64,000 nucleotides of DNA from Terriglobia bacterium (GTDB lineage: Bacteria; Acidobacteriota; Terriglobia; Bryobacterales; Bryobacteraceae). Shown here piece by piece: positions 34,611-50,512 of this stretch. The first letter of the stretch is position 1, and each line of letters opens with the position of its first letter. The notes under the pieces were generated by a model, which saw only the letters and a list, made by a program, of their open reading frames with translations, was not told the origin of the DNA and ran no database searches. A program made the position numbers and the translations under genes. The stretch spans positions 1-64,000 of the forward strand of contig JAIQEX010000018.1 of the NCBI GenBank assembly GCA_020073615.1, given 5' to 3'.

Positions 34611-34685
34611 TCTGCCGGCCGGCCCGCGCCGGCCATCCTCCGCCGGGCTCAAGGGTTGGCCGTCCCGGCCGATTAGATAGGCGTG

Positions 34686-37600
34686 ATGACCACGCCTCGA
34701 CGGCTGGCATTCCCGGCGCTGTTGTGGATGGCGTGGCTGGCGCCCAGCCTGGACGCCCACCGCTACAGCTTCAAAATGTATACCCGGGAACAGGGGCTCA
34801 CCAACCAGGGTGTGCAATGCATGGCGCAGGACCGTCAGGGCTTCCTTTGGGTGGGCACGCAGGACGGGCTGTTTCGCTACGACGGCGAGCGCTTCCAGCG
34901 CGCACCGAGCGCCGGCTGGCGCAGCACCGACATGAAGTCCGTGCATGAAACCGCGGGTGGCATCCTGTGGGCGGGGACGCGCCGGGACCTGCTGCGGCGC
35001 GAGGGGGAATCGTTCGCGGCGGTCGATCTGGGCGACGCGGAGTTTTTCGGCTCCGGCGGCCTGGCTTCCGATCTCCGGGGGCGGCTGTACGCGGCCACCA
35101 GCAAGGGTCTGGCCGTAGTGGAACCAGCCGCGGCGGGCGGAGGATACGGCGTCCGGTGGATCTCGCGGCAGCCGGCCGCGGGCGTCCACGTGGATCCGGC
35201 GGGAAACGTCTGGTTCGGCTGCGGAACGGGATTGTGCCGCTGGGACGGCCGCCAGATTGCGGTGGTGGGCGCGGACCGGCAACTGCCCGCGGACCGCTGG
35301 AGCGCCGCCGCCACCGACGCGCAGGGCAACCTCTGGGTGCGCAGCGCCACCAGGCTGATGGAACTGCCCCGCGAAAGCCGCAACTTCGTGGCGCGCGGCG
35401 AGGGCATCGCGCCCATGACGGTGTTGGCCGCCTCGCTCTACCTGGCGCCCTCGGGCGACCTGTGGATTCCCACCGACAGCGGGCTGGCGGTATGGCGCGG
35501 AGAACGCGCGCAAATCGTCCCGCAGAGCGATGGCTTGCCCAGCGACAACCCCAGTTCGGTGGTGGAGGATCGCGAGGGATCGGTGTGGGTGGGCATGCGG
35601 GGAATCGGGGTGGCCCGCTGGCTGGGGTATCGCCATTGGGAGAGCTGGACCACGGCCGACGGGTTGTCCAACGACGTAATCTGGCCCATACGGCGGGTTT
35701 CCAGCAGCGCGCTTCTGGTGGGCACGAACCACGGGCTCAACATCATCGACGGTGCGCCGGGCGCGCGCGAGCCCTGCGTCCGGCCGGTGCGGTCAGTGAC
35801 CGAACGAGTGCGCGCGCTGGCCATCGACCCGCAAGGCCATGTTTGGGCGGGCAGTTCCACCGGCGGTTTGAAAGAGCTCGATCGCGAGTTGCGGCCGGCC
35901 GCCTCGTATGGCGCCGCCGCAGGGCTGAGCGATGTGCGCGTCAACGGCGTGGCCGCGGCCGGCGGCCGGCTGTGGGTGAGCACCGAGGGCGGTCTGTTTC
36001 GCAGCACCCCCACGGGAACCGGCGCGGCGGTCCGCTTCGCGCGCGAAGACGTCCCCGGCACCGGCGCCGACGAGATCTTCTACCAGGCGATGGAGGACCG
36101 CCGCGGCTGGCTTTGGGCGCCCGGCGCCCGCGGCCTGGCGTGGCGGCACGATGGCATCTGGACGCGGATGGGCCGCGCCCAGGGGCTGCTCAGCGACTCG
36201 GCCTACGCGGTGGCCGAGGCTGCCGATGGCGCGCTGTGGGTCGCGTACGCCGAGCCGCAAGGGGTCACCCGCATCGCCTTTTCCGGCGCCGCCTACACGC
36301 TCCGCCATTTCAACCGCAACAACGGCCTGCGGTCCGACAAGGTGTATTTCGTGGGGGCGGACCCGGCGGGCGGCGTCTGGGTGGGCACCGACAGCGGGGT
36401 GGATGCGCTGCTCGAAGGCTCCTGGCGCCATTACGGGCGGCAGGAGGGCCTGGTTTGGGAAGACTGCGACACCAACGGCTTCTTCGCCGACTCCGACGGC
36501 AGCGTCTGGATCGCCACCAGCCACGGGCTTTCCCACTTGCGCCCGGTACGGCAGGCGCTCCCGGAGGCCCCTCCCGCGGTATTGCTCACGGCGGTGATGC
36601 TGGGCGCGGCCGGCCGGCCGGTGGCGCCCCTGCTGGCGCCGTACTCGGACCAGTCCCTGTTGCTGCGCTTCGCCGCGCTCACCTTTCTGCACGAGCACGA
36701 TGTGGTGTTCCGCTATCGCATGAAGGGTCTGGAACAAGGCTGGACCGAGACCTCCCTGCGCGAGGCCCGCTACCAGTCGCTGGCACCCGGCACGTACCGC
36801 TTCGAGGTGATGGCCCGTAGCGGCGGCGCCAACTGGACGGCCGCGCCGGCCACCCTCGCCATCACCGTCACTCCGCCCTGGTGGAGCACCTGGTGGCTGC
36901 GCAGCACCGTCGTTCTCCTGGTGATCGCGGCCGCGTGCACCTGGTGGCGCCGCCGGTTACGGCGCATGACCGAGCAAAACAACCGCCTGGAGCGGGCCAT
37001 CGCCGAGCGTACCCAGGAACTGCTGGTGGAAAAGTCCCGGGCCGAGGAGGCCAATCACCTCAAGGGCGCCTTCCTGGCCAACATGAGCCATGAAATCCGC
37101 ACCCCCATGAACGGCATTATCGGGATGATGGAGCTGGCCCTCACCACCACCCTGACCGGCGAACAACGCGAGTACCTGGTGAGCGCGCGGGGATCCGCGC
37201 GCTCCCTGTTGAGCCTGCTCGGCGACATCCTGGATTTCTCCAAAATCGAAGCCGGCCGGCTGGAACTGAGCCCCACCCGGTTCCGCCTGGCCGAGTACCT
37301 GGAGAGCGCCCGCAACCTGATCGCCGTGCAGGCCGCCCACAAGAGCCTGGCGGTGACCCTCAGCGTGGCGCCGGAGGTTCCGGAGTGGCTGGAGGGCGAT
37401 CCGGACCGCCTGCGGCAGGTGCTCCTGAACCTGATGGGCAACGCCGTCAAGTTCACCGAGAAGGGGCACGTGGCCCTCTCGGTCGGCGTGGAATCGGTGG
37501 ACGCCGGCGGCATTGGCCTGACGTTCGCGGTGGTGGACACGGGCATCGGCATTCCCGAGGCCAAGCAGGCGGTGATCTTCGAGCCCTTCCGCCAGGTGGA

Positions 37601-38204
37601 CGGCTCCACCACGCGCAAATACGGCGGCACGGGCCTGGGCCTGGCCATCTCCGCGCGGCTGGCCGAGCTGATGGGCGGCCGCCTCCGCCTCGAAAGCCGG
37701 CCGGGGCGCGGCAGCACCTTCCATTTCACGGCCCGGTTCGGCGTCGTCGAGAGGCCCCCGGAGCCGCCGCCGGCGGCGCCCGCGGCGCTCGAGTGGCCCG
37801 CCGCCGGCGGCCGCAAGCTGCGCATCCTGGTGGCCGAGGATAACCCGGTGAACCAGGCCATCGCCCGCGGTCTGCTGGTGAAGCGGGGCTTCGAGGTCGT
37901 AGTGGCGGCCAACGGCCTCGAGGCGCTCGCGGCCCTCGATGGCGGGCGCTTCGACATCGTGCTCATGGACGTGCAGATGCCCGAAATGGACGGCCTCGAA
38001 GCCACCGCCGCCATTCGCGCCGCGGAGCGCGAGACCGGCGGCCACATTCCCATCGTCGCCCTCACGGCCCATGCCATGAAAGGAGACTGCGACCGCTGCC
38101 TGGCGGCGGGCATGGACGGCTACATCTCCAAGCCCATCCAGTTCGAGGAGTTGCTGGAGGCCATGCGGCAGGCGCAGGGGGCGCGCGCCGCCCAGCCGGC
38201 GTGA
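34686..38204 (+). CDS. Hybrid sensor histidine kinase with periplasmic two-component propeller
   Basis: About 1172 residues. A signal segment is followed by a beta-propeller sensor of repeated ligand-binding strands ([42 protein letters not shown]), a Y_Y_Y domain ([28 protein letters not shown]) and a membrane helix near 730-755. HisKA follows with the phospho-acceptor H802 ([13 protein letters not shown]), then HATPase_c ([30 protein letters not shown]) and a receiver with D1095 ([11 protein letters not shown]). This is the BT4673-like hybrid design that senses polysaccharide products in Bacteroidota. All catalytic residues are present. A GTG one codon earlier is an alternative start. No output regulator is adjacent. 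Confidence 0.92.
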
Positions 38205-38260: not shown

Positions 38261-39364
38261 TCAACAGGATCCGGTGGCCGGGGAATCTGCGTTTTCCGCC
38301 AGCACCGCGGACATCTTGCGCACAAACTCGGCTTTGGAAAAACGCCGCGCGTGCTCCTGCAAAGCGGCCGGTTGGATATCGCGCTCCAGGTTCTCGAAGC
38401 GCTCCACGGCGCGGGCCAGATGGTCCGCCGACGGCTCGTCGTAAAAGATGCCGCCGGCGGGCGGAACCGTCTCCAGCACGCCGCCGCGGCCGAGCGCGAT
38501 CACCGGTTTTCCGCTGGCCAGCGCCTCCACCGGCGTCATGCCGAAATCCTCCTCCCCAGGCAGCAGAAGCGCCCGCGAGCGCGCGTAGAGATGGCGCAGT
38601 TCCTCGTCCGGCACGCGTCCCGCAAACTCGATGTTCTTCGCCGCCGCCCGGCGCAAGCTGCGGAATTCGGGGCCGCCGCCGGCGATCACCAGGCGCCGCC
38701 CGCTGCGCGAAAACGCCTCCACCGCCGAATCGATGCGCTTGTACGGAACCAGTTCGCTCACGATCAGGAAATAGTCTTCGGCCGGCTTCCAATAGAAAGC
38801 GTCCACGTCCACCGGAGGATGCACCACCTCCGACTCGCGGCGGTAGGTCCTCCAGATTCGCCGCCGGACGTTTTCGCTGTTGGCGATGAAGCGGTCCACG
38901 CGCGCCGCCGTGGCGTAATCCCAAAGCCGCAGATAGTTGGTGAGCGGCGTCATGGCGGCGCGTTTGAGGCGCGAACGGGTCCATTCATTGCGGTACGCGG
39001 GGTACAGGTCCCACAGATAGCGCATGGGCGTGTGGCAGTAGCAGATGTGCCGCGCCCCCGACGGCGCGATCACCCCCTTGGCCGGGCCGCTCTCGCTGGT
39101 GAGCACCAGGTCGTAGCCGCGCAGATCGAAGCTCTCGAGCGCCAGGGGCATCAGCGGCAGCAGCGACCGGTACCAGCGCCGCCAGGGATTGAGGAACGAC
39201 GCCGTAATCCGGCGCCCGCGCAGCGCCGGGCCCAGCGTTTCCGGATCGCAGAACAGCGTGAAGATGTCGGCCTCCGGCAGCATCCCGCAGAGCGCCTCGA
39301 GCACCTTCTCCCCGCCGCGCCGGTGCAGCAGCCAGTAGTGTACAATCGCCGCGCGCGTCTGCAA
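38261..39364 (-). CDS. Glycosyltransferase family 4 (WbaZ-like)
   Basis: This 367-residue GT-B fold retaining glycosyltransferase has an N-terminal acceptor domain (AIVHYWLLHRRGGEKVLEAL, HICYCHTPMRYLWDLYP). The C-terminal nucleotide-sugar domain has FLIVSELVPYKRIDSAVEAF, the GGGPE turn, and the E-x7-E motif in GEEDFGMTPVEALASGKPV. It is most like mannosyl- or rhamnosyltransferases for O-antigen or exopolysaccharide. It lies 3 bases downstream of the kinase-like gene at 39368 and is likely cotranscribed with it. No other polysaccharide genes are adjacent. Confidence 0.9.
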   Translation of the reverse strand: MQTRAAIVHYWLLHRRGGEKVLEALCGMLPEADIFTLFCDPETLGPALRGRRITASFLNPWRRWYRSLLPLMPLALESFDLRGYDLVLTSESGPAKGVIAPSGARHICYCHTPMRYLWDLYPAYRNEWTRSRLKRAAMTPLTNYLRLWDYATAARVDRFIANSENVRRRIWRTYRRESEVVHPPVDVDAFYWKPAEDYFLIVSELVPYKRIDSAVEAFSRSGRRLVIAGGGPEFRSLRRAAAKNIEFAGRVPDEELRHLYARSRALLLPGEEDFGMTPVEALASGKPVIALGRGGVLETVPPAGGIFYDEPSADHLARAVERFENLERDIQPAALQEHARRFSKAEFVRKMSAVLAENADSPATGSC

Positions 39365-39367
39365 CGG

Positions 39368-41746
39368 TCATTCCCCGCCGTGCTTGCCCGCCGCGGCCGG
39401 CGCCGGCGCCAGCGCCCTCAGGACCCGCTCCAGCTCCGGTTCTTGCAGCGGCTTGGGCAGCACGAACCGCCCTTCACCCTCGAAATCGGCCGACAATTCC
39501 GCGTCGTAGCCGTCCGCCAGGAGAATGAATCCGCCCACCCGCGTCTGCAACCTCTCCGATAGCTCCACCCAGTTCAACCCGGGCGCATGGACGGAGCAGA
39601 AGGCGGCGTCGAAACGCATGCGCTGCGCCAGCTCCAGCGCGGTGTCGGAGTTGTTGACCGGAACCACGCGGTAGCCGCGCGCCGCGAGCAGCCCCAGCAT
39701 CTGCCGTTGCAGCGCGTCGTCCGGCTCGATCACCAGCGCGGTCTTGCGCCCCGAGAAATCGGCCGCCGATCCGCCGGCCGAGGGGACCGACAGCGCCCGC
39801 TCGCGGGTGGGCGTCACCGGAAGTTCCACTTCGAAGCGCGGGTCGGCATTGCTCTTCTCGATCAGCCGCACCTCGCCGCCGTGGCCCGCGATCACGCTGC
39901 GCGTCACCCCCAGCACCGTCGCGGTCTCCTCGGACTTGCGCGGTTCCGGGCACGTGAACGCAATCTCCACCACCAGCCGCTTGCCCAGCACGCTGGTGCG
40001 TATGGTAATGGCCTTCTGCGGCGCGCCCGCCAGGGACTGCTCGGCATGCACCAGCAGATTGAGAAACACCTGCTCCAACTGGCCCTGGAAGCCCACCACA
40101 CAGATCGGCTCGCGCGTGGTCAGGTCGCGCACGCGGATGCCCGACGCTTTCCAATCGCCCCCGCGGAATTCGATCAGGTTGCGCAGCAGGGTGTTGATGC
40201 ACACCGGACGGGCATCCCCCTGCCCGGCCGCGGCGAAAGAGACCAGCCGCGCCACCATGGCCGCGGCTTTCCGGGCTTCCGATGCGATGGCCGCCACCTC
40301 CCGTTCGGCCAGGCCCCCGTGCGCCCTCTCCAGCGCCCGCTGCGCCAGGTCCGAGATGGAAGCGAGCGGCGTTTGCAGTTCATTCACCACGCCGGAGATC
40401 AGCCGCCCCACGGCAGCCATCTTCTCGGTGCGAAAAAGCTGTTCCTGCACGGACCGCTGGTCCAGCAGCCGCAGCGACACGCCGATCTGGTTGCCGAGGT
40501 GCTGCGCCATCGCCTGCTCATCGGCGGTGAAGTCGTGGACGTGGTTGTCCTGATCCAGCTCCAGCACGCCGATCACCTCGCCCTGCGCCAGCATGGGAAC
40601 GAACAGCAGCGACTTGGGCGCCCCGTCGCCACTTTTCGCCGCCAGGGGGAACGGGCTGCGGTCGATGTCCGGTATCACCAGCAGGGTACGGTAATGGAAG
40701 CACGCCACCGCGCCGGCCGCCGTTCCGCCGGGAGGGGAGGAAAGCGAAATCGAAGCGGGCGCCCCGTCGCCCGCGGCCACCGCGTCCAGCGTCTGCGCGG
40801 CCCGGTTATAGATGTACAGGTGGACGCGCGTGACGCCCAGAATGCCCGGCAGCGCTTCGCCGATGCGCTCCAAAATCGTCTCCGCCGATGCTCCGCCCAG
40901 CACCTCCTCGCCCAGTTGGTACGTCCTCTGCAGCCGTTCGCGCTGGTTGCGCAGCCGGTGTTCCCGGTTCCACAGGACAAAGCTACCGAGGAGCACGACG
41001 CTGAGCCCGGCCACCAGCGCCACCGGCGGAAAAAACCAGCCGCGCTCCGTGAGCACGATGTCCGACGGTGCGGCCAGCAGCAGTTCGAACCGCGCATTGA
41101 AAGGAGGGTACGGACAGTATTGCAGGGCTACGCCGGTGGCCTGCACCGTGTCGTCCGGCTTGAAGCCCGTGATGCTGCCCGCCGGTTGGTTGCGGGGGGC
41201 CGGGCAGAACAGCCGGTACGCGCTGCCCTGCGCCGCAATCAGCATGTAAGGGCCGGCCGTGGTGGTGTCGGTCTCGACCATGCGCCCGGACGTCCGGACC
41301 AGGCGTCCCAAATAGCGGAAGCCCTGCAGAGCGCGCGCCGCCACCTCGATGGCGGCCGGCGGCTCCCGGCGGCCGATCTTGTCGATGCGCGCCGGTGAAA
41401 TCGTCACCAGCCCGGCCACCGAGGATACCGTGCCCTCGACCTCGATTTCGTCGCCCGCCTCCCAGCCGTTCAGCCGGGCATCGTCGGCCGCCACGTCCAG
41501 GACGGCGCCGCTATGCCCGTCCTCGATGGCCAGCATGGTGTAGTTCGGAAAGTGAAAGGCCCGGGCGTTGACGATTCCGCGGACGGCCACCTTGGCGCCG
41601 GCATGAGCGGGGGTGAAATCGGGCGCCCGGCGCGCGTTCACCTCGGCCAGCGTAAGCCTGGTTTGCGCGCCGGCGGGGAGGCACGCCAGTGCCAGCGCCC
41701 ACGTGCCCAGAATACTCAGGCGGCCCGGTTTTGCGCGGCTAACCAT
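39368..41746 (-). CDS. GAF-domain hybrid histidine-kinase-like protein with degenerate catalytic sites
   Basis: This 792-residue protein has a signal peptide (1-28), an OB-like extracytoplasmic region (about 30-225), a membrane helix (about 238-260), a GAF domain (about 280-430), kinase core and receiver. The kinase is aberrant: the H-box reads SGVVNELQTPLAS, with Asn455 where His should be. The N-box reads FLNLLVHAEQSL (His567 for Asn), and no DxGxG loop is found. The receiver has Ser718 (AAFCSVHAPG) where the phospho-Asp should be, although Lys765 is kept. It should neither autophosphorylate nor accept phosphate, so it may act as a scaffold or allosteric sensor. It overlaps the HAD gene by 31 bases. 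Confidence 0.85.
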   Translation of the reverse strand: MVSRAKPGRLSILGTWALALACLPAGAQTRLTLAEVNARRAPDFTPAHAGAKVAVRGIVNARAFHFPNYTMLAIEDGHSGAVLDVAADDARLNGWEAGDEIEVEGTVSSVAGLVTISPARIDKIGRREPPAAIEVAARALQGFRYLGRLVRTSGRMVETDTTTAGPYMLIAAQGSAYRLFCPAPRNQPAGSITGFKPDDTVQATGVALQYCPYPPFNARFELLLAAPSDIVLTERGWFFPPVALVAGLSVVLLGSFVLWNREHRLRNQRERLQRTYQLGEEVLGGASAETILERIGEALPGILGVTRVHLYIYNRAAQTLDAVAAGDGAPASISLSSPPGGTAAGAVACFHYRTLLVIPDIDRSPFPLAAKSGDGAPKSLLFVPMLAQGEVIGVLELDQDNHVHDFTADEQAMAQHLGNQIGVSLRLLDQRSVQEQLFRTEKMAAVGRLISGVVNELQTPLASISDLAQRALERAHGGLAEREVAAIASEARKAAAMVARLVSFAAAGQGDARPVCINTLLRNLIEFRGGDWKASGIRVRDLTTREPICVVGFQGQLEQVFLNLLVHAEQSLAGAPQKAITIRTSVLGKRLVVEIAFTCPEPRKSEETATVLGVTRSVIAGHGGEVRLIEKSNADPRFEVELPVTPTRERALSVPSAGGSAADFSGRKTALVIEPDDALQRQMLGLLAARGYRVVPVNNSDTALELAQRMRFDAAFCSVHAPGLNWVELSERLQTRVGGFILLADGYDAELSADFEGEGRFVLPKPLQEPELERVLRALAPAPAAAGKHGGE

Positions 41747-42384
41747 GCGCTCAGCTCCTCGCTCAGAAAATTATCGACGGTAAGGTCCGCGCCCGGCAAG
41801 GTGGCGTGCGTGGTACGGATACCGACGACACGCGTACCGGCGGCGCGCGCGGCGTCGACGCCGGCGTAGGAATCCTCGAACACGATGCAGTCGGCCGGCG
41901 GCACCGACAGCAACTCCGCGGCGCGCCGGTAAATCTCCGGATCGGGCTTGGGATGGCGCACCTGGTGGCCGTCCACCAGCACCTGGAAATAGGGCCGTAG
42001 CCCGGCGCGATCCAGCAGGAACGCCACGTTCTCGGGCTCGGCGTTGCTGGCCAGCGCCATGGGCGCGGCGCGATAGCGCGCGAGCAGCGCACGCAAGCCC
42101 GGCACCAGAATCTCCTCGATGCGTCCCGCGATCATGCTGCGATACATCTCCTCTTTGGCCGCTCCCCGCCGCGCGATCTCTTCGGGCGGCAGCCCGGCGC
42201 CGAAGAAATCGCGAATGATTTCGTCGTTGCGCTTGCCGTACATGCGCTGCTGCATGGCTTCGGTGGTCGCCACGCCGAAGCGGCGGTTGAATGCCGTCCA
42301 AGCCTCGCGGTGGACCGGGTTGGAATCGACAATTACACCGTCCATATCGAAAACCAGGGCGAGACCGGGCGCCAACAAGTCCAA
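41716..42384 (-). CDS. HAD-superfamily phosphatase/phosphomutase (beta-phosphoglucomutase-like)
   Basis: 222 residues. HAD motif I is FDMDGVIVDSN, motif II is MALASNAEPEN, motif III is KPDPEIYRRAA, and motif IV is CIVFEDSYAGVDAARAAG. The alpha-helical cap between motifs I and II puts it in the subfamily with beta-phosphoglucomutase and phosphoglycolate phosphatase; the substrate cannot be fixed. The proposed start is TTG at 42384 (another TTG at 42378); the only nearby ATG is inside motif I, which would destroy the fold. The 3' end overlaps the next gene by 31 bases, indicating cotranscription. Confidence 0.85.
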   Translation of the reverse strand: MDLLAPGLALVFDMDGVIVDSNPVHREAWTAFNRRFGVATTEAMQQRMYGKRNDEIIRDFFGAGLPPEEIARRGAAKEEMYRSMIAGRIEEILVPGLRALLARYRAAPMALASNAEPENVAFLLDRAGLRPYFQVLVDGHQVRHPKPDPEIYRRAAELLSVPPADCIVFEDSYAGVDAARAAGTRVVGIRTTHATLPGADLTVDNFLSEELSAWLAAQNRAA

Positions 42385-46091: not shown

Positions 46092-46208
46092 GCCCGGCTC
46101 CGGGCGTGCGCCGCTTTGGGAAATCCGGATGGGACGCAAGCCTCTTCCGGTTCACCATGGTTGAACGAACCCCGCTCGCACGCTTGAGATGAGACACTGA
46201 GAGTGCGT

Positions 46209-47363
46209 ATGGAAGGTCGAATTCAGATTGACCGGTTTGCCGTGAAGAACTTTCGGAGCATTCAGGAATGCGACGTTGAGTTGGCGCCCCTCACGTTCTT
46301 CATCGGCGCCAATGCGTCTGGAAAGACCAGCTTCGTCGACGCGATTCTGTTCGTTGCATCAGCCGTTCGGGATTCGTTGCAGAAAGCCATCGCCGATCGG
46401 GGTGGAATCCATTCTATTCTGTACCAGCCCAAGGCGCTTCCGGCGAATTCGCAATTCGACTTCTATCTCTCGTCCTCGACGGGTCTTGCATGCGAATTCC
46501 ATCTGGTGTTGCGGGTCATTGAGGGGTGGTCGGTTTCCGTAGCTCGCGAAGAGTGCCGGATTCGCAACCCGGAAGGCGGCCAACATTATTACCTCGTCGA
46601 AAACGGGAGCGTCCAAGGTTCTGCAGCCGTTTTTCCCGCGGTCAGCGCCGATCGGATTTTTCTTTCGAACGCGTCGGGTCTTCCAGAGTTCCGCCTGCCG
46701 TTTGACTTTCTAGCCGGTATCGGCTCAACGGAGCCAACACCGCCCGGCATCTGGTACGGAGTAGAAGGATTGAGCCGTGCGTTTGGCCAGCACAAAGTTG
46801 AAGGCACGGGGTTGACGGCTCGTTTCCGCAAATTTATGAAGAGTCAGCCAAATCGACTGGATATCGTCCACCAGTACTTGCGCGCAATAGCGCCCCCGTT
46901 CGATCGCATTGAAGTTGTTGAATCGAACGACGGGCCGTGGCTGCGCTTCGTCGAGAAGTCTCGCTTGGGTGTGTCGTTAGGATTCTACCTTTCACAGGCG
47001 TCCGGCGGGTTGGTCAACTCGGCTGAGATTCTCCTGGAGCTGTTCGAACTTCCTGAGGAAGGTAGGCCTGCTTCCCCAGTTGTCATCGAAGAACCCGAAG
47101 CGCTCTTGCACCCCGGTGCGATTCAGGTGATTCGCGACAGCTTTCTGGAAGCGAATAGAACCCGCCAGGTGCTCGTCACGACCCATAGTCCCGATCTTCT
47201 CGACGATCCTAACATCCCTGCGGAGTGGATTCGAATTGTGTACCGAGACGATACCGGGACCCACATCGATGTTCCTGACCCAGCCACTAAATCGATCATT
47301 CGAGATCAGTTGTATACCCCTGGTCAATTGCTGCGGCAAGGCGGACTTATCTTGCATCCGTAA
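46209..47363 (+). CDS. AAA_21/OLD-like ATPase, first gene of a transferred two-gene island
   Basis: 384 residues. The N-terminus IDRFAVKNFRSIQ leads to Walker A GANASGKT (33-40). Late motifs are Walker B-like VVIEEPEALLHPGA and the switch region VLVTTHSPDLLDD. This is the SMC/RecF-like fold of OLD, GajA and AriA ATPases used in anti-phage systems. Its stop overlaps the next ATG as TAATG, so the two proteins are coupled. Base composition and codon use are visibly less G+C-rich than either flank, a sign of transfer. GTG 46203 is an alternative start. Confidence 0.82.
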   Translation: MEGRIQIDRFAVKNFRSIQECDVELAPLTFFIGANASGKTSFVDAILFVASAVRDSLQKAIADRGGIHSILYQPKALPANSQFDFYLSSSTGLACEFHLVLRVIEGWSVSVAREECRIRNPEGGQHYYLVENGSVQGSAAVFPAVSADRIFLSNASGLPEFRLPFDFLAGIGSTEPTPPGIWYGVEGLSRAFGQHKVEGTGLTARFRKFMKSQPNRLDIVHQYLRAIAPPFDRIEVVESNDGPWLRFVEKSRLGVSLGFYLSQASGGLVNSAEILLELFELPEEGRPASPVVIEEPEALLHPGAIQVIRDSFLEANRTRQVLVTTHSPDLLDDPNIPAEWIRIVYRDDTGTHIDVPDPATKSIIRDQLYTPGQLLRQGGLILHP

Positions 47364-47980
47364 TGGCTTCTGCACAAAGCGTCACGCTTGGTCTTATCGT
47401 TGAGGGTCATGGAGAGGAACAGGCGACCCCGGTCTTGATCCGGCACATCGCGCGTGCATGCGGTTTCCACAGCTCTATCAAATGCTCCGTGAGGCGCGTT
47501 CCCAAGTCACAGTTGCTCAAACCCCGAGAATTGGAACGGGCGGTGGAAGCCCTCACGCGGCAAATCGGCCGAAGTCAACCGATTTTGATCTTGTTAGACG
47601 CCGACGACGATTGCCCGAAAGAACTTGCCGCTAACCTTAAGGCCCGCTGTCAGGCCGAGCATGCCGATGTCACGATATCAATAGTAATTGCCAAAAAGGA
47701 GTACGAGGCATGGTTCTTGGCGGCCGCCAACTCACTGGCGGGGCACCGCGGCATGGCCGAGCACGTGAATCCTCCGAGCGATCCTGAATCAGTCCAAGGC
47801 GCGAAGGAATGGCTGACGGCGCACATGCCCTCAGACCAATGCTATTCTCCAACAAGGCATCAATCGGCGTATTCGGATCTGATGGATCTGTCGGGAGCAA
47901 GACTGGCGAGATCCTTCAGGAAGTTCGAGAAAGAGGTGAGCGGCCTGCTGGGATTGGAACTCCGACCGGTTAGAAGGTAG
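47363..47980 (+). CDS. DUF4276 TOPRIM-like nuclease/effector partner of the ATPase
   Basis: 205 residues. The start GLIVEGHGEEQATPVLIRHI carries the conserved glutamate of a TOPRIM-like fold. ILLDADDDCPKEL supplies the DxD acids, and AKKEYEAWFLAA follows. This matches DUF4276. Split ATPase-plus-TOPRIM pairs resemble a two-chain version of OLD/GajA or the AriA-AriB pair of PARIS, where the TOPRIM protein is a nuclease toxin freed on infection. The defence role is inference. Codon use matches the ATPase and not the neighbours. Confidence 0.78.
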   Translation: MASAQSVTLGLIVEGHGEEQATPVLIRHIARACGFHSSIKCSVRRVPKSQLLKPRELERAVEALTRQIGRSQPILILLDADDDCPKELAANLKARCQAEHADVTISIVIAKKEYEAWFLAAANSLAGHRGMAEHVNPPSDPESVQGAKEWLTAHMPSDQCYSPTRHQSAYSDLMDLSGARLARSFRKFEKEVSGLLGLELRPVRR

Positions 47981-48505: not shown

Positions 48506-48787
48506 TTACGATACGCCGGGCAGCAGCTCGATCTCGTCGATGTAGCCGATCACCGCCATGTCGATGGGTGACTGCGGCCGGCCCACCGCGGTCATGGCGC
48601 TGAAGCCCTCGGTGACCACCAGCACGCGATCGCCCACGCCCGCGTCCACCGCATCGAGCGCGATCACGGCGTCGCCGCGGTCGCTGCCGTCCAGGTTGAG
48701 CGGCTGCACCAGCAAAATCTTGCGGCCCTCGTGGCTCGCGTGCTTTTGCGTGGCCACCAGCTCGCCCACCACGCGGGCGATCAGCAT
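48506..48787 (-). CDS. BMC-P pentameric shell protein (EutN/CcmL family), copy 1
   Basis: 93 residues, the usual size for EutN/CcmL proteins that cap the vertices of microcompartments. Conserved features are MLIARVVGELVATQKHAS, LLVQPLNLDG, ALDAVDAGVGDRVLVV and AVIGYIDEIEL. Its ATG at 48787 overlaps the end of copy 2 by seven bases. It is last in the operon and abuts the TIGR03437 fragment head to head with three bases between stops. Confidence 0.93.
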   Translation of the reverse strand: MLIARVVGELVATQKHASHEGRKILLVQPLNLDGSDRGDAVIALDAVDAGVGDRVLVVTEGFSAMTAVGRPQSPIDMAVIGYIDEIELLPGVS

Positions 48788-49122
48788 GGCTTGCCCTTGC
48801 GCCGTGCCTTGCGGCCTCCCCCGCCGTGCGGAGGGGCGCCGGAGGGCGGCGCGGCCTCCCGCAGGTGCACGGAATCGACAATTCCCACTACGGTGGTATC
48901 CACGGGGGGCTCTTTGGGAAGGAACGGAAAGCTGGCCTCCTTGCCGCGCACCCAGTAGATGGTCTCGCCCGCGCCGGCCCCGGTGGTGTCCAGGCAAATC
49001 AGCCGCTTGCCGGTGTCCCGCAAGTCCGGCGTCAGCGGCTGGATCACCAGCATGCGCTGCCCTTCCAGACTCGGATCTTTCACGGTGGCCCAGACGCAGC
49101 CCACCACGCGGCCAAGATACAT
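48781..49122 (-). CDS. BMC-P pentameric shell protein (EutN/CcmL family), copy 2 with basic tail
   Basis: 113 residues. The core is MYLGRVVGCVWATVKDPSLE, LVIQPLTPD, CLDTTGAGAGETIYWV and VDTTVVGIVDSVHL. A ~25-residue tail rich in Pro, Gly, Lys and Arg (GGGGRKARRKG) follows that the other two copies lack. The tail could face the cytosol or lumen at the vertex and contact another component. It is coupled to copy 1 by overlap; the gap to copy 3 is three bases. Confidence 0.93.
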   Translation of the reverse strand: MYLGRVVGCVWATVKDPSLEGQRMLVIQPLTPDLRDTGKRLICLDTTGAGAGETIYWVRGKEASFPFLPKEPPVDTTVVGIVDSVHLREAAPPSGAPPHGGGGRKARRKGKPC

Positions 49123-49125
49123 GGG

Positions 49126-49392
49126 TCAGTCCAGGTGCACCTCGTCGACAATGCCCACGATGGCGCTGTCCACGGGCGTGTCCTTGCATCCCTCGGCCAT
49201 GCGCGCCGAGCTCCCGGCCACCGCGATGACGCGCTCGCGATAGCCCGCGCTCACCGTGTCCACCGACACTACGTAGCCCGCTTCGTCTTTTCCATCGGGT
49301 GAGACGGGCTTCAGGATGAGCAGCTTCTTGCCTTCCAGGCGAGGGTCTTTGCGCGTGGCAACTACCGTGCCCACTACACGGGCCAGAATCAT
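49126..49392 (-). CDS. BMC-P pentameric shell protein (EutN/CcmL family), copy 3
   Basis: 88 residues: MILARVVGTVVATRKDPRLE, LLILKPVSPDG, VDTVSAGYRERVIAV and VDSAIVGIVDEVHLD. The loop that reads GAGxGxxV in the other two copies is SAGYRERV here, so the pentamer surface or pore should differ. Three distinct pentamer genes in one locus are typical of the Planctomycetes-Verrucomicrobia (PVM) class of aldolase microcompartments. Confidence 0.93.
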   Translation of the reverse strand: MILARVVGTVVATRKDPRLEGKKLLILKPVSPDGKDEAGYVVSVDTVSAGYRERVIAVAGSSARMAEGCKDTPVDSAIVGIVDEVHLD

Positions 49393-49409
49393 GACAGGCC
49401 TGTCACCGG

Positions 49410-49709
49410 CTACTTGCCGGCGCCCTGCGCCTGCGATTTGCCGATGGGCAGGACGTCTTCCAGGCTCTGGTGCGGGCGCGGAATCACGTGCACCGCGATG
49501 AGCTCGCCCACGCGGCGCGCCGCCGCGGCGCCGGCGTCGGTGGCCGCGCGAACCGCCGCCACATCGCCGCGCACCATGGCGGTCACGTAGCCCGAGCCGA
49601 TCTTCTCCCAGCCCACCAGGGTCACCTTGGCGGCTTTTACCATCGCGTCGGAGGCCTCGATCATGGCCACCAGCCCGCGTGTTTCGATCATTCCCAGCGC
49701 TTCACCCAT
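49410..49709 (-). CDS. BMC-H hexameric shell protein
   Basis: 99 residues with a single BMC domain: [40 protein letters not shown], and [26 protein letters not shown]. The central pore loop is in KIGSGY. It is the only hexamer gene in the window, and there is no tandem (BMC-T) protein, so the facets must be built from this protein or from unlinked genes. It lies between the aldolase (20-base gap) and the pentamers (17-base gap). Confidence 0.95.
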
Positions 49710-49729
49710 CTATGCTCTCCCATTCCTCG

Positions 49730-50512
49730 TTATCCCAAACCGCGCGCCTTCAGCGCTTCATCCACCAGGCCGATCAGCTCCGAACGCGTCACGTAAAATC
49801 CGTCTTCGCCGCCGGCCTCCAGGTCCTCGGCCGCCACCGGGCAGCCCGGCTCGCCGCTCGACTTGGCCTTCACTCCATAGCGCGTGCGCGAATCGAGCAG
49901 CTTATCCACTTCCTGCCGCGGCAGCACCTTGGGACCGCCCAGCAGCTCCGCCACCAGCGCGATGCGCGCGAAGTGCTCCATGGTCTCCATGCGGAAGTAG
50001 GCTTTGTAGACGTCCTCGCCGTAGCACACCGCGCCGTGGTTGGCCATCAACAGCGCGTCGTATTTCGGAATCAGCGGCAGCATGGGCTCGGTCAGTTGCG
50101 GCGTCCCGGGCAGCCCGTATTCCGCCAGCGGCACGCAGCCCAGGCCAATCACCACCTCCGGCAGCAAGGCCAGGTTCAGCGACCGCCCGGCGGTGGCGAA
50201 CCCGGTGGCCACCGGCGGATGGGCGTGCACCACCGATTGGATGTCCGGCCGCATCCGGTAAATCGTCAGGTGCATGGCGATTTCGCTGGTCCGCTCGTGC
50301 CGCCCGGAGATCTTGTTGCCCTGCATGTCCACCACGATCAGATCGTCGACGTGCATCATCCCCTTGCACACGCCCGTGGGCGTCGCCAGGATGCGCTCCG
50401 CGTCCAGCCTGATGGTGATATTGCCGTCGTTGGAGGCAATCCAGCCCTTCTGAAACACCAGCCGTCCAATCTCGATGATGTCCTCGCGATGCTCGCGCTC
50501 CGTTTTCACCAT
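49730..50512 (-). CDS. Class II aldolase/adducin-family enzyme with C-terminal encapsulation tail
   Basis: 260 residues. The fold runs from GRLVFQKGWIASNDGNITIRL through zinc ligands in VVHAHPPVATGFA (HxH) and ANHGAVCYGED (His). Such enzymes split L-fuculose- or L-rhamnulose-1-phosphate into DHAP and L-lactaldehyde. FucA is ~215 residues; here a linker (about 205-232) and a terminal amphipathic helix (FYVTRSELIGLVDEALKARG) are added. That is the form of peptides that target cargo into microcompartments. It is first in the shell operon, so it is the probable signature enzyme. Sugar specificity is inference. Confidence 0.9.
   Translation of the reverse strand: MVKTEREHREDIIEIGRLVFQKGWIASNDGNITIRLDAERILATPTGVCKGMMHVDDLIVVDMQGNKISGRHERTSEIAMHLTIYRMRPDIQSVVHAHPPVATGFATAGRSLNLALLPEVVIGLGCVPLAEYGLPGTPQLTEPMLPLIPKYDALLMANHGAVCYGEDVYKAYFRMETMEHFARIALVAELLGGPKVLPRQEVDKLLDSRTRYGVKAKSSGEPGCPVAAEDLEAGGEDGFYVTRSELIGLVDEALKARGLG

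Follow-up and report, generated by a model that had tools for sequence, protein, structure and literature searches.

What does a hybrid histidine kinase become once its phosphotransfer residues are gone: a decaying gene, or a sensor that works by other means? The question is raised by a 792-codon gene in a 64,000-nucleotide stretch of genomic DNA from a Terriglobia bacterium (contig JAIQEX010000018.1; hereafter, the window). A preliminary description of the locus, made from the DNA sequence, proposed a pseudokinase/pseudoreceiver sensor that is kept by selection and works with the product of one of two nearby genes. The results below uphold the first half of that proposal, in that residue loss is family-wide and dN/dS is purifying, and give no support to the second. 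This soil-bacterium gene probably encodes a maintained non-catalytic sensor rather than being a broken gene, since nearly all relatives in the order have lost the catalytic residues while keeping the protein.

Domain layout and lost catalytic sites

The open reading frame contains no internal stop, and the frame is intact as originally described (Table 1). Pfam recognizes one domain above its cut-off, the GAF domain (49.9 versus 22.4 bits), which is likewise intact; HisKA (17.2 versus 26.9 bits) and Response_reg (19.7 versus 30.2 bits) score below theirs, and HATPase_c is absent from the matches at E ≤ 1 (it is weakly matched in two of 30 close relatives). Descent of the DHp, CA and receiver folds is visible in a profile match to ZraS (1.8e-19), in fold matches, and in alignment and trees with intact kinases, the model confidence for the DHp being low. 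The membrane anchor is present, as a hydrophobic stretch. The region preceding it, found in 75 of 134 family sequences, probably forms two OB-like beta domains, judging from the model and from weak Pfam OB matches in two of 30 relatives, and would lie outside the membrane.

Table 1. Coordinates of the dead hybrid kinase, its domains and replaced sites, and neighbouring genes (window positions unless a locus is named).
Feature	Position	Strand	Basis and remarks
Dead hybrid histidine kinase (pseudokinase and pseudoreceiver)	39368–41746	minus	792 aa; open reading frame and translation
Putative N-terminal extracytoplasmic region, residues 29–234	41045–41662	minus	AlphaFold2 beta-rich; block pLDDT ≥85 over residues 31–230
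Membrane helix, about residues 241–262	40961–41026	minus	Hydrophobic stretch; start of modelled helix 241–283
GAF domain, residues 287–425	40472–40888	minus	Pfam 49.9 bits; VIA Z 18.4 to PtsP GAF
Pseudo-DHp, residues 432–515	40202–40453	minus	Aligned to HisKA; pooled dN/dS 0.10
N455 at the phospho-accepting His site	40382–40384	minus	Read from DNA; alignment to intact kinases
Pseudo-CA (Bergerat-like fold, G1 and G2 boxes absent), residues 516–650	39797–40201	minus	VanS CA fold match and sequence
H567 at the N-box Asn site	40046–40048	minus	Read from DNA; alignment to intact kinases
F597 at the G1-box Asp site	39956–39958	minus	Alignment; F/Y in 121 of 134 non-gap sequences (of 141)
Pseudo-receiver, residues 669–785	39392–39742	minus	VIA Z 17.1 to PmrA receiver; pooled dN/dS 0.15
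S718 at the phospho-accepting receiver Asp site	39593–39595	minus	Read from DNA; alignment
HAD phosphatase, beta-phosphoglucomutase family	41716–42384	minus	TIGR02009 159.8 versus cut-off 153.35 bits; overlaps pseudokinase start by 31 nt
GT4 glycosyltransferase	38261–39364	minus	Begins 3 bases past the dead-kinase stop; neighbour solely in the window genome
Hybrid kinase	34683–38204		Full-scoring HisKA, HATPase_c and receiver domains (Pfam)
Small, probably secreted protein, example	L063:8366–8842	plus	
Small, probably secreted protein, window-genome copy on another contig	L304:1498–1968	minus	

Sites were assigned by aligning the 792-aa protein to intact kinases. Reading of the DNA together with this alignment bears out the three replacements first reported (His to Asn455, Asn to His567, Asp to Ser718) as well as the missing DxGxG loop: the glycines of the G2 box are gone and the G1 Asp is F597. 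Elsewhere in the receiver, the acid pair is disrupted (E674-P675) and Ala744 stands at the Thr position, whereas the Lys survives as Lys765. The original wording, that every phosphotransfer residue is replaced, holds for the His, N-box, G1, G2 and receiver Asp and is slightly too strong because Lys765 is kept. The protein lacks what defines a functional hybrid kinase: the phospho-His, the N-box Asn, the G1 Asp, and the receiver Asp with its acid pair. It has instead the features of a pseudo-histidine kinase—the phospho-His is missing across orthologues, and the protein is nonetheless maintained—and of a bacterial pseudo-receiver, a receiver-like domain in which at least one of the five active-site residues is missing. 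Here the second acid, the Asp and the Thr have all been replaced, the Lys remains, and PF00072 scores below cut-off.

HisKA domains without a His are put at 0.9% (722 of 76,471) in PMC12632262. Of the other Pfam HisKA matches in the window genome (E ≤ 0.001; the gene under study is not among them), 53 of 54 keep the His (positions checked for 30 of them), and its absence here is therefore not a matter of chance. The one exception, L298 (contig C56, 21628–21813), has Gly at the phospho-His position of a HisKA domain within a 934-aa open frame.

A family of dead kinases spread across the order

A relative of the window protein was found at E ≤ 1e-40 in 134 of the 257 genomes of the order (Bryobacterales, Acidobacteriota); the remaining 123 gave no match at this threshold. 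Each of the 134 genomes carries one match, except G226, whose frameshifted copy is in two pieces. Of 31 loci examined from the genome collection—MAGs of Bryobacterales, Solibacter and other Acidobacteriota—30 are dead-kinase relatives. Seven divergent relatives lie directly after a HAD phosphatase gene (see below) among 40 further HAD loci, which we selected from a longer set and which come from genomes without a 1e-40 match; together with the 134, they make up a family set of 141 sequences. A weak, distant match 2 kb after HAD (L211, 22.9 bits) was left out of the counts. A search of the phylum (396 genomes, E ≤ 1e-25) gave matches in 25 genomes, three in family f1, to which the window gene belongs, and 22 outside that family; outside the order, only general kinases were found. 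No paper on this dead hybrid kinase family was found in the open-licence PMC literature.

All four catalytic sites are aligned in 128 sequences, the other 13 of the 141 having been omitted because of gaps. Of the 128, 123 retain not one of the four residues, four retain one, and one retains all. What has replaced them varies. At the His site, the 141 sequences have N 44, S 27, A 24, T 18, G 14, R 4, D 3, E 3, H 2, Q 1 and one gap; at the N-box site, H 76, Y 14, L 13, Q 7, D 7, R 6, F 4, A 3, C 2, N 2, T 1 and six gaps; and at the receiver Asp site, S 64, A 53, D 5, T 4, C 2, four single others and nine gaps. The G1 Asp column reads F in 72 and Y in 49 of 134 non-gap sequences. Almost all members lack the catalytic residues; no fixed substitution stands in their place, though the G1 column has become aromatic. 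The preliminary description had suggested asking whether the same substitutions are fixed in orthologues under purifying selection: the exact residues are not, while catalytic absence is nearly so, and dN/dS is low.

A His stands at the catalytic site in 2 of 140 scored family sequences, one of them the intact relative L132 described below, and in 1 of 136 scored sequences within f1. The f1 copy in question, L083 of G226, is frameshifted just after the site, and its N-box Gln and receiver Ser are as dead as those of its relatives. A His occurs at column 451, a single helical turn earlier than the dead site, in genus g8 (L126, L130, L135, L137, L138, L141, L142 and L168).

The reading frames are largely preserved. 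At least 90% of residues 290–780 is filled by 105 of the 134 open frames; the others run into contig ends, have a shorter CA domain, or are broken. Among 135 matched rows, nine contain a stop that the match reads through, and in one of these, G194, the frame is plainly truncated.

Purifying selection on the dead domains

Rates of substitution were pooled over 17 close pairs, picked by eye from 49 for low divergence; the 32 dropped pairs include the frameshifted pair L022–L083, the pair L138–L168 (dS 1.43), and some in which saturation pushed dN/dS above 1. The pooled dN/dS is 0.101 (0.081–0.124) for the DHp, 0.163 (0.140–0.190) for the CA and 0.147 (0.124–0.175) for the receiver, with 0.131 for the GAF domain and 0.227 for the outer region (nine pairs). 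Every dead domain is under purifying selection in these 17 pairs, each with a lower value than the outer region. Medians over all 49 pairs, saturated ones included, are 0.33 (DHp), 0.44 (CA), 0.36 (receiver), 0.29 (GAF) and 0.36 (outer region), and dN/dS exceeds 1 in highly diverged pairs. Between the window and its nearest relative, dN/dS is 0.13 for the DHp, 0.36 (0.18–0.70) for the CA and 0.20 for the receiver, with HAD at 0.18 and CutA at 0.47. The claim that the gene is not simply decaying is sustained: 123 of 128 sequences are catalytically dead, yet the frames are kept and the domains are under purifying selection.

The former catalytic columns are now ordinary or nearly so in variability: within their own domains, columns 455, 567 and 718 lie at the 67th, 49th and 27th entropy percentiles, respectively. 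Among the most constrained positions are, in the receiver, R693 (invariant), P696, W726 and P675 and, in the CA, G624 and A568; the residue-597 aromatic is constrained too. W726, P675, P696 and the 597 aromatic are conserved and absent from intact L132, W726 being absent from the f3 relatives as well; R693 is not new, because L132 also has Arg there.

An AlphaFold2 model built from 30 sequences (mean pLDDT 79.5, pTM 0.39) contains a beta-rich outer region, a long helix running from membrane to coil, the GAF domain, a helical pair around the dead H-box (of low confidence at 436–451), a CA-like domain and a complete receiver fold. In the modelled CA, only residues 598–604 join strand 590–597 to helix 605–621. 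Structure comparison matches CA residues 512–645 to the VanS CA (Z 18.8, rmsd 2.1 over 129 residues), and DivL (4q20), the RetS–GacS complex (7n0e) and ShkA (6qrj) are among the fold matches. The CA, GAF and receiver folds are predicted to be intact (see also the Z scores in Table 1).

Probable origin of the family from active kinases

An orthologue with intact His and Asp, which the preliminary description had named as evidence against its proposal, was found once. It is L132 of genome G238, which belongs to a different family of the order (f2); its His, N-box, G1, G2, acid pair, Asp and Lys are all in place. For comparison, an outgroup pool was assembled of 29 kinases from the phylum matches, related matches, one f3-family genome and two window-genome kinases, all of which show the His and the N-box Asn. 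A larger tree combined 62 family rows (of 134 passing a length filter, from the 141) with 12 of the 29 outgroup rows, and a smaller one combined 28 f1 rows, three f3 rows, L132 and eight outgroup rows. The whole family forms a single clade with respect to the 12 intact-type kinases. L132 groups with the three degenerate f3 sequences (support 99/94; 95 in the larger tree), and the two together are sister to the sampled f1 rows (100/99).

An active ancestor is suggested by this one relative in another family that keeps all four residues; L132 is a single sequence in one MAG (81% complete). A grouping of f1 and f3 to the exclusion of L132 is disfavoured (AU p 0.029), and since L132 also groups with f3, catalysis probably disappeared on two or more occasions, one of them preceding the radiation of f1. 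One loss common to f1 and f3 is disfavoured on the same two grounds; the joint presence of P675 and P696 in f1 and most of f3, and their absence from L132, speaks the other way.

Genomic neighbourhood

Neighbouring genes were tallied over 130 non-redundant loci. The HAD phosphatase gene lies directly upstream of the dead kinase, on the same strand, in 98 of 130 loci with upstream sequence, and in 38 of the 44 kinase-bearing f1 genera. (L166 was scored as lacking HAD because of a long-running frame; its HAD lies about 320 bases upstream, which would give 99 of 130.) The linkage is missing in 32 of the 130 loci, and nine of those genomes (G170–172, G174 and G177–181) keep the dead kinase and give no HAD match at E ≤ 1e-20. 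HAD itself is present in 207 of the 257 genomes of the order, and it occurs without the dead kinase in 33 of the 40 chosen loci (two of these loci, L209 and L224, hold at most 800 bases downstream). L132 and its three f3 relatives have no HAD upstream. The neighbours of L132 are instead two genes that we take, from their sequences, to encode an ArsR-type regulator and an arsenite-methyltransferase-like protein.

Downstream of the dead kinase, 49 of 134 loci, from many genera, carry a gene for a small protein of about 160 aa, whose N-terminus suggests secretion. It belongs to no Pfam family above cut-off, its model is of low confidence (mean pLDDT 40.8 from a two-row alignment), and it occurs in 202 of the 257 genomes of the order (E ≤ 1e-10). 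In 17 of the 33 HAD loci without a dead kinase, it directly follows HAD. Since HAD and the secreted protein also stand side by side without the kinase, the latter is placed like a cassette inside a HAD–secreted protein unit.

A proposed sensor without phosphotransfer, and its alternatives

Taken together, computation supports an old, maintained, non-catalytic hybrid kinase family. We give a probability of roughly three in four to the reading that this order-wide family consists of membrane sensors that signal by contact, without phosphotransfer. Computation also supports an ancestor with intact residues that lost the phospho-His, N-box Asn, G1 Asp, G2 box and receiver Asp before f1 radiated, the folds staying under purifying selection. 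On this account, the present protein would be a membrane-tethered dimer in which a ligand is sensed by the GAF domain and, in some genera, also by the outer OB-like module; the signal would be a change of shape passed through the coiled coil, dead DHp, CA and receiver, and partner proteins would bind the dead domains and read that change. The protein itself would neither use ATP nor pass on phosphate. Its partner could be a second sensor kinase or a response regulator, as with DivL and RetS, or else the HAD phosphatase, whose gene overlaps from upstream. Against the reading stand the low model confidence around the H-box and for the overall arrangement, the damaged copies, the loci without HAD, the higher medians over all 49 pairs, the CA value of 0.36 (0.18–0.70) in the window's own closest pair, the Arg that L132 shares at R693, and the dependence of the intact ancestor on one relative in one MAG.

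Ordinary decay, in which the gene is a kinase on its way to loss, would account for the free drift of columns 455 and 567, for the rows that read through a stop and the frameshift in G226, and for the many genomes without a 1e-40 match. It is very unlikely, given that the core is filled in most frames and several of the others are cut only by contig ends, that conserved residues have appeared which intact L132 lacks, and that pooled dN/dS is 0.10–0.16, well below 1, in all dead domains of close pairs, an outcome that counts as refuting decay. Less credible still is a misalignment that hides a catalytic His or Asp nearby in an active protein. Doubt of the same kind was raised for Caulobacter CCNA_03265 (PMC11481889), and the His at 451, one helical turn early, in the eight g8 sequences would fit it; however, the H-box, N-box and receiver anchors align to the 29 intact-type kinases (21 with an aligned receiver), and the G1 and G2 boxes are missing too. 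A conserved His elsewhere, which the preliminary description had named as contrary evidence, is absent from the DHp: the columns of residues 262–785 with His in more than 30% of sequences are 416, 567, 622 and 692. The HisKA phosphatase motif consists of Glu or Asp at +1 and Thr or Asn at +4 from the His. The window protein has E456 and T459, and +1 is E/D in 134 of 141 sequences, so that a response-regulator phosphatase activity relying on these residues rather than on the His could have been retained; the His is described as contributing to this activity without being essential (PMC12632262). Position +4 is T/N in only 32 of 138 sequences, however, and the residues of the nucleotide pocket are lost; we consider retained phosphatase activity improbable.

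As for a partner, the dead kinase might mainly regulate the HAD phosphatase of its own operon, as a membrane anchor or allosteric partner. The frequent upstream position of HAD in f1, and its absence beside L132 and the f3 relatives, agree with such a role, while the unlinked loci, the nine genomes that keep the dead kinase without a HAD match, and the persistence of HAD without the kinase do not; we regard it as a tentative possibility, the strongest of the alternatives and well short of even odds. HAD as an obligate partner is not supported, because some lineages lack it. The partners first proposed fare far worse. It is true that in the window the glycosyltransferase gene is adjacent, beginning 3 bases away, and that the hybrid kinase listed at 34686 is intact, with full-scoring HisKA, HATPase_c and receiver domains. 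Across the 134 loci, of which 118 extend 500 bases or more downstream of the dead kinase, however, the glycosyltransferase is adjacent in one, the window itself, and so falls outside the conserved unit; linkage of the hybrid kinase is not conserved either, with scattered matches at differing places in seven loci, the window's own included; and the closest relative (83% identical) has different genes downstream. Both are rejected on synteny, and cooperation of the dead kinase with either is scarcely credible. A heterodimer with a paralogue bearing the same outer region was also considered; the window genome holds no other such gene at E ≤ 0.01.

A more elaborate picture is speculative, and we hold it doubtful as a whole: HAD, dead hybrid kinase and secreted protein would form an order-wide module in which a former phosphorelay sensor became, probably in two separate events (f1 and f3), a transmembrane switch that does without phosphate, with an aromatic filling the old ATP site and newly conserved residues marking the pseudo-receiver; as its output, the switch might directly control either a metabolic phosphatase or another kinase.

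Relation to known pseudokinases and pseudo-receivers

The nearest worked-out case in kind is DivL of Caulobacter, in which, as described in PMC4211667, the phospho-His is replaced across orthologues and the kinase core is kept as a protein-binding module. DivL combines PAS domains with a kinase module that keeps the N, G1, F and G2 boxes (PMC4211667), whereas the window protein has lost these boxes and carries a dead receiver; with N455 in place of the Tyr of the DivL orthologue group, it does not belong to that group. By comparison with DivL, which keeps its ATP-site motifs, the dead hybrid kinase family goes further. RetS of Pseudomonas is described as a hybrid membrane sensor kinase that acts on another kinase, blocking GacS autophosphorylation; it has GacS to interact with, whereas the window protein is not known to interact with a kinase. 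A pseudokinase variant of ChrS in Corynebacterium has a beneficial effect, and ChrS forms heterodimers with its paralogue HrrS, but according to PMC9491836 the variant is a laboratory-selected frameshift rather than an old natural family. ShkA of Caulobacter contains a pseudo-receiver that controls the kinase by ligand binding and is itself an active kinase, in the account of PMC7010744. Bacterial pseudo-receivers surveyed in PMC12632262 have the receiver fold without the Asp, and in about 80% of them the second acid is non-acidic, as here; in the window protein, the kinase that would feed the receiver is also dead, in the same chain.

The switching mechanisms of bacterial pseudo-receivers are called still a mystery in that 2025 review (PMC12632262), and pseudo-histidine kinases and pseudo-receivers have so far been known from individual cases. 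The present family is a large natural series—141 sequences from one order, with both halves of a hybrid kinase dead in one chain—and comes with its own material for comparison: one intact relative, and 17 loci in which the HAD and secreted-protein genes adjoin without a kinase. It lets one ask what a two-component sensor does once the phosphate is removed.

Other genes in the window

Two further groups of genes in the window may be recorded. At 48506–50512 (minus strand), microcompartment shell genes—one BMC and two EutN/CcmL—lie beside a class II aldolase gene, and the group looks like part of a sugar-degrading bacterial microcompartment. At 46203–47980 (plus strand), genes for an AAA ATPase and then a DUF4276 protein have one base in common, a pair that we take to resemble known ATPase/DUF4276 pairs.
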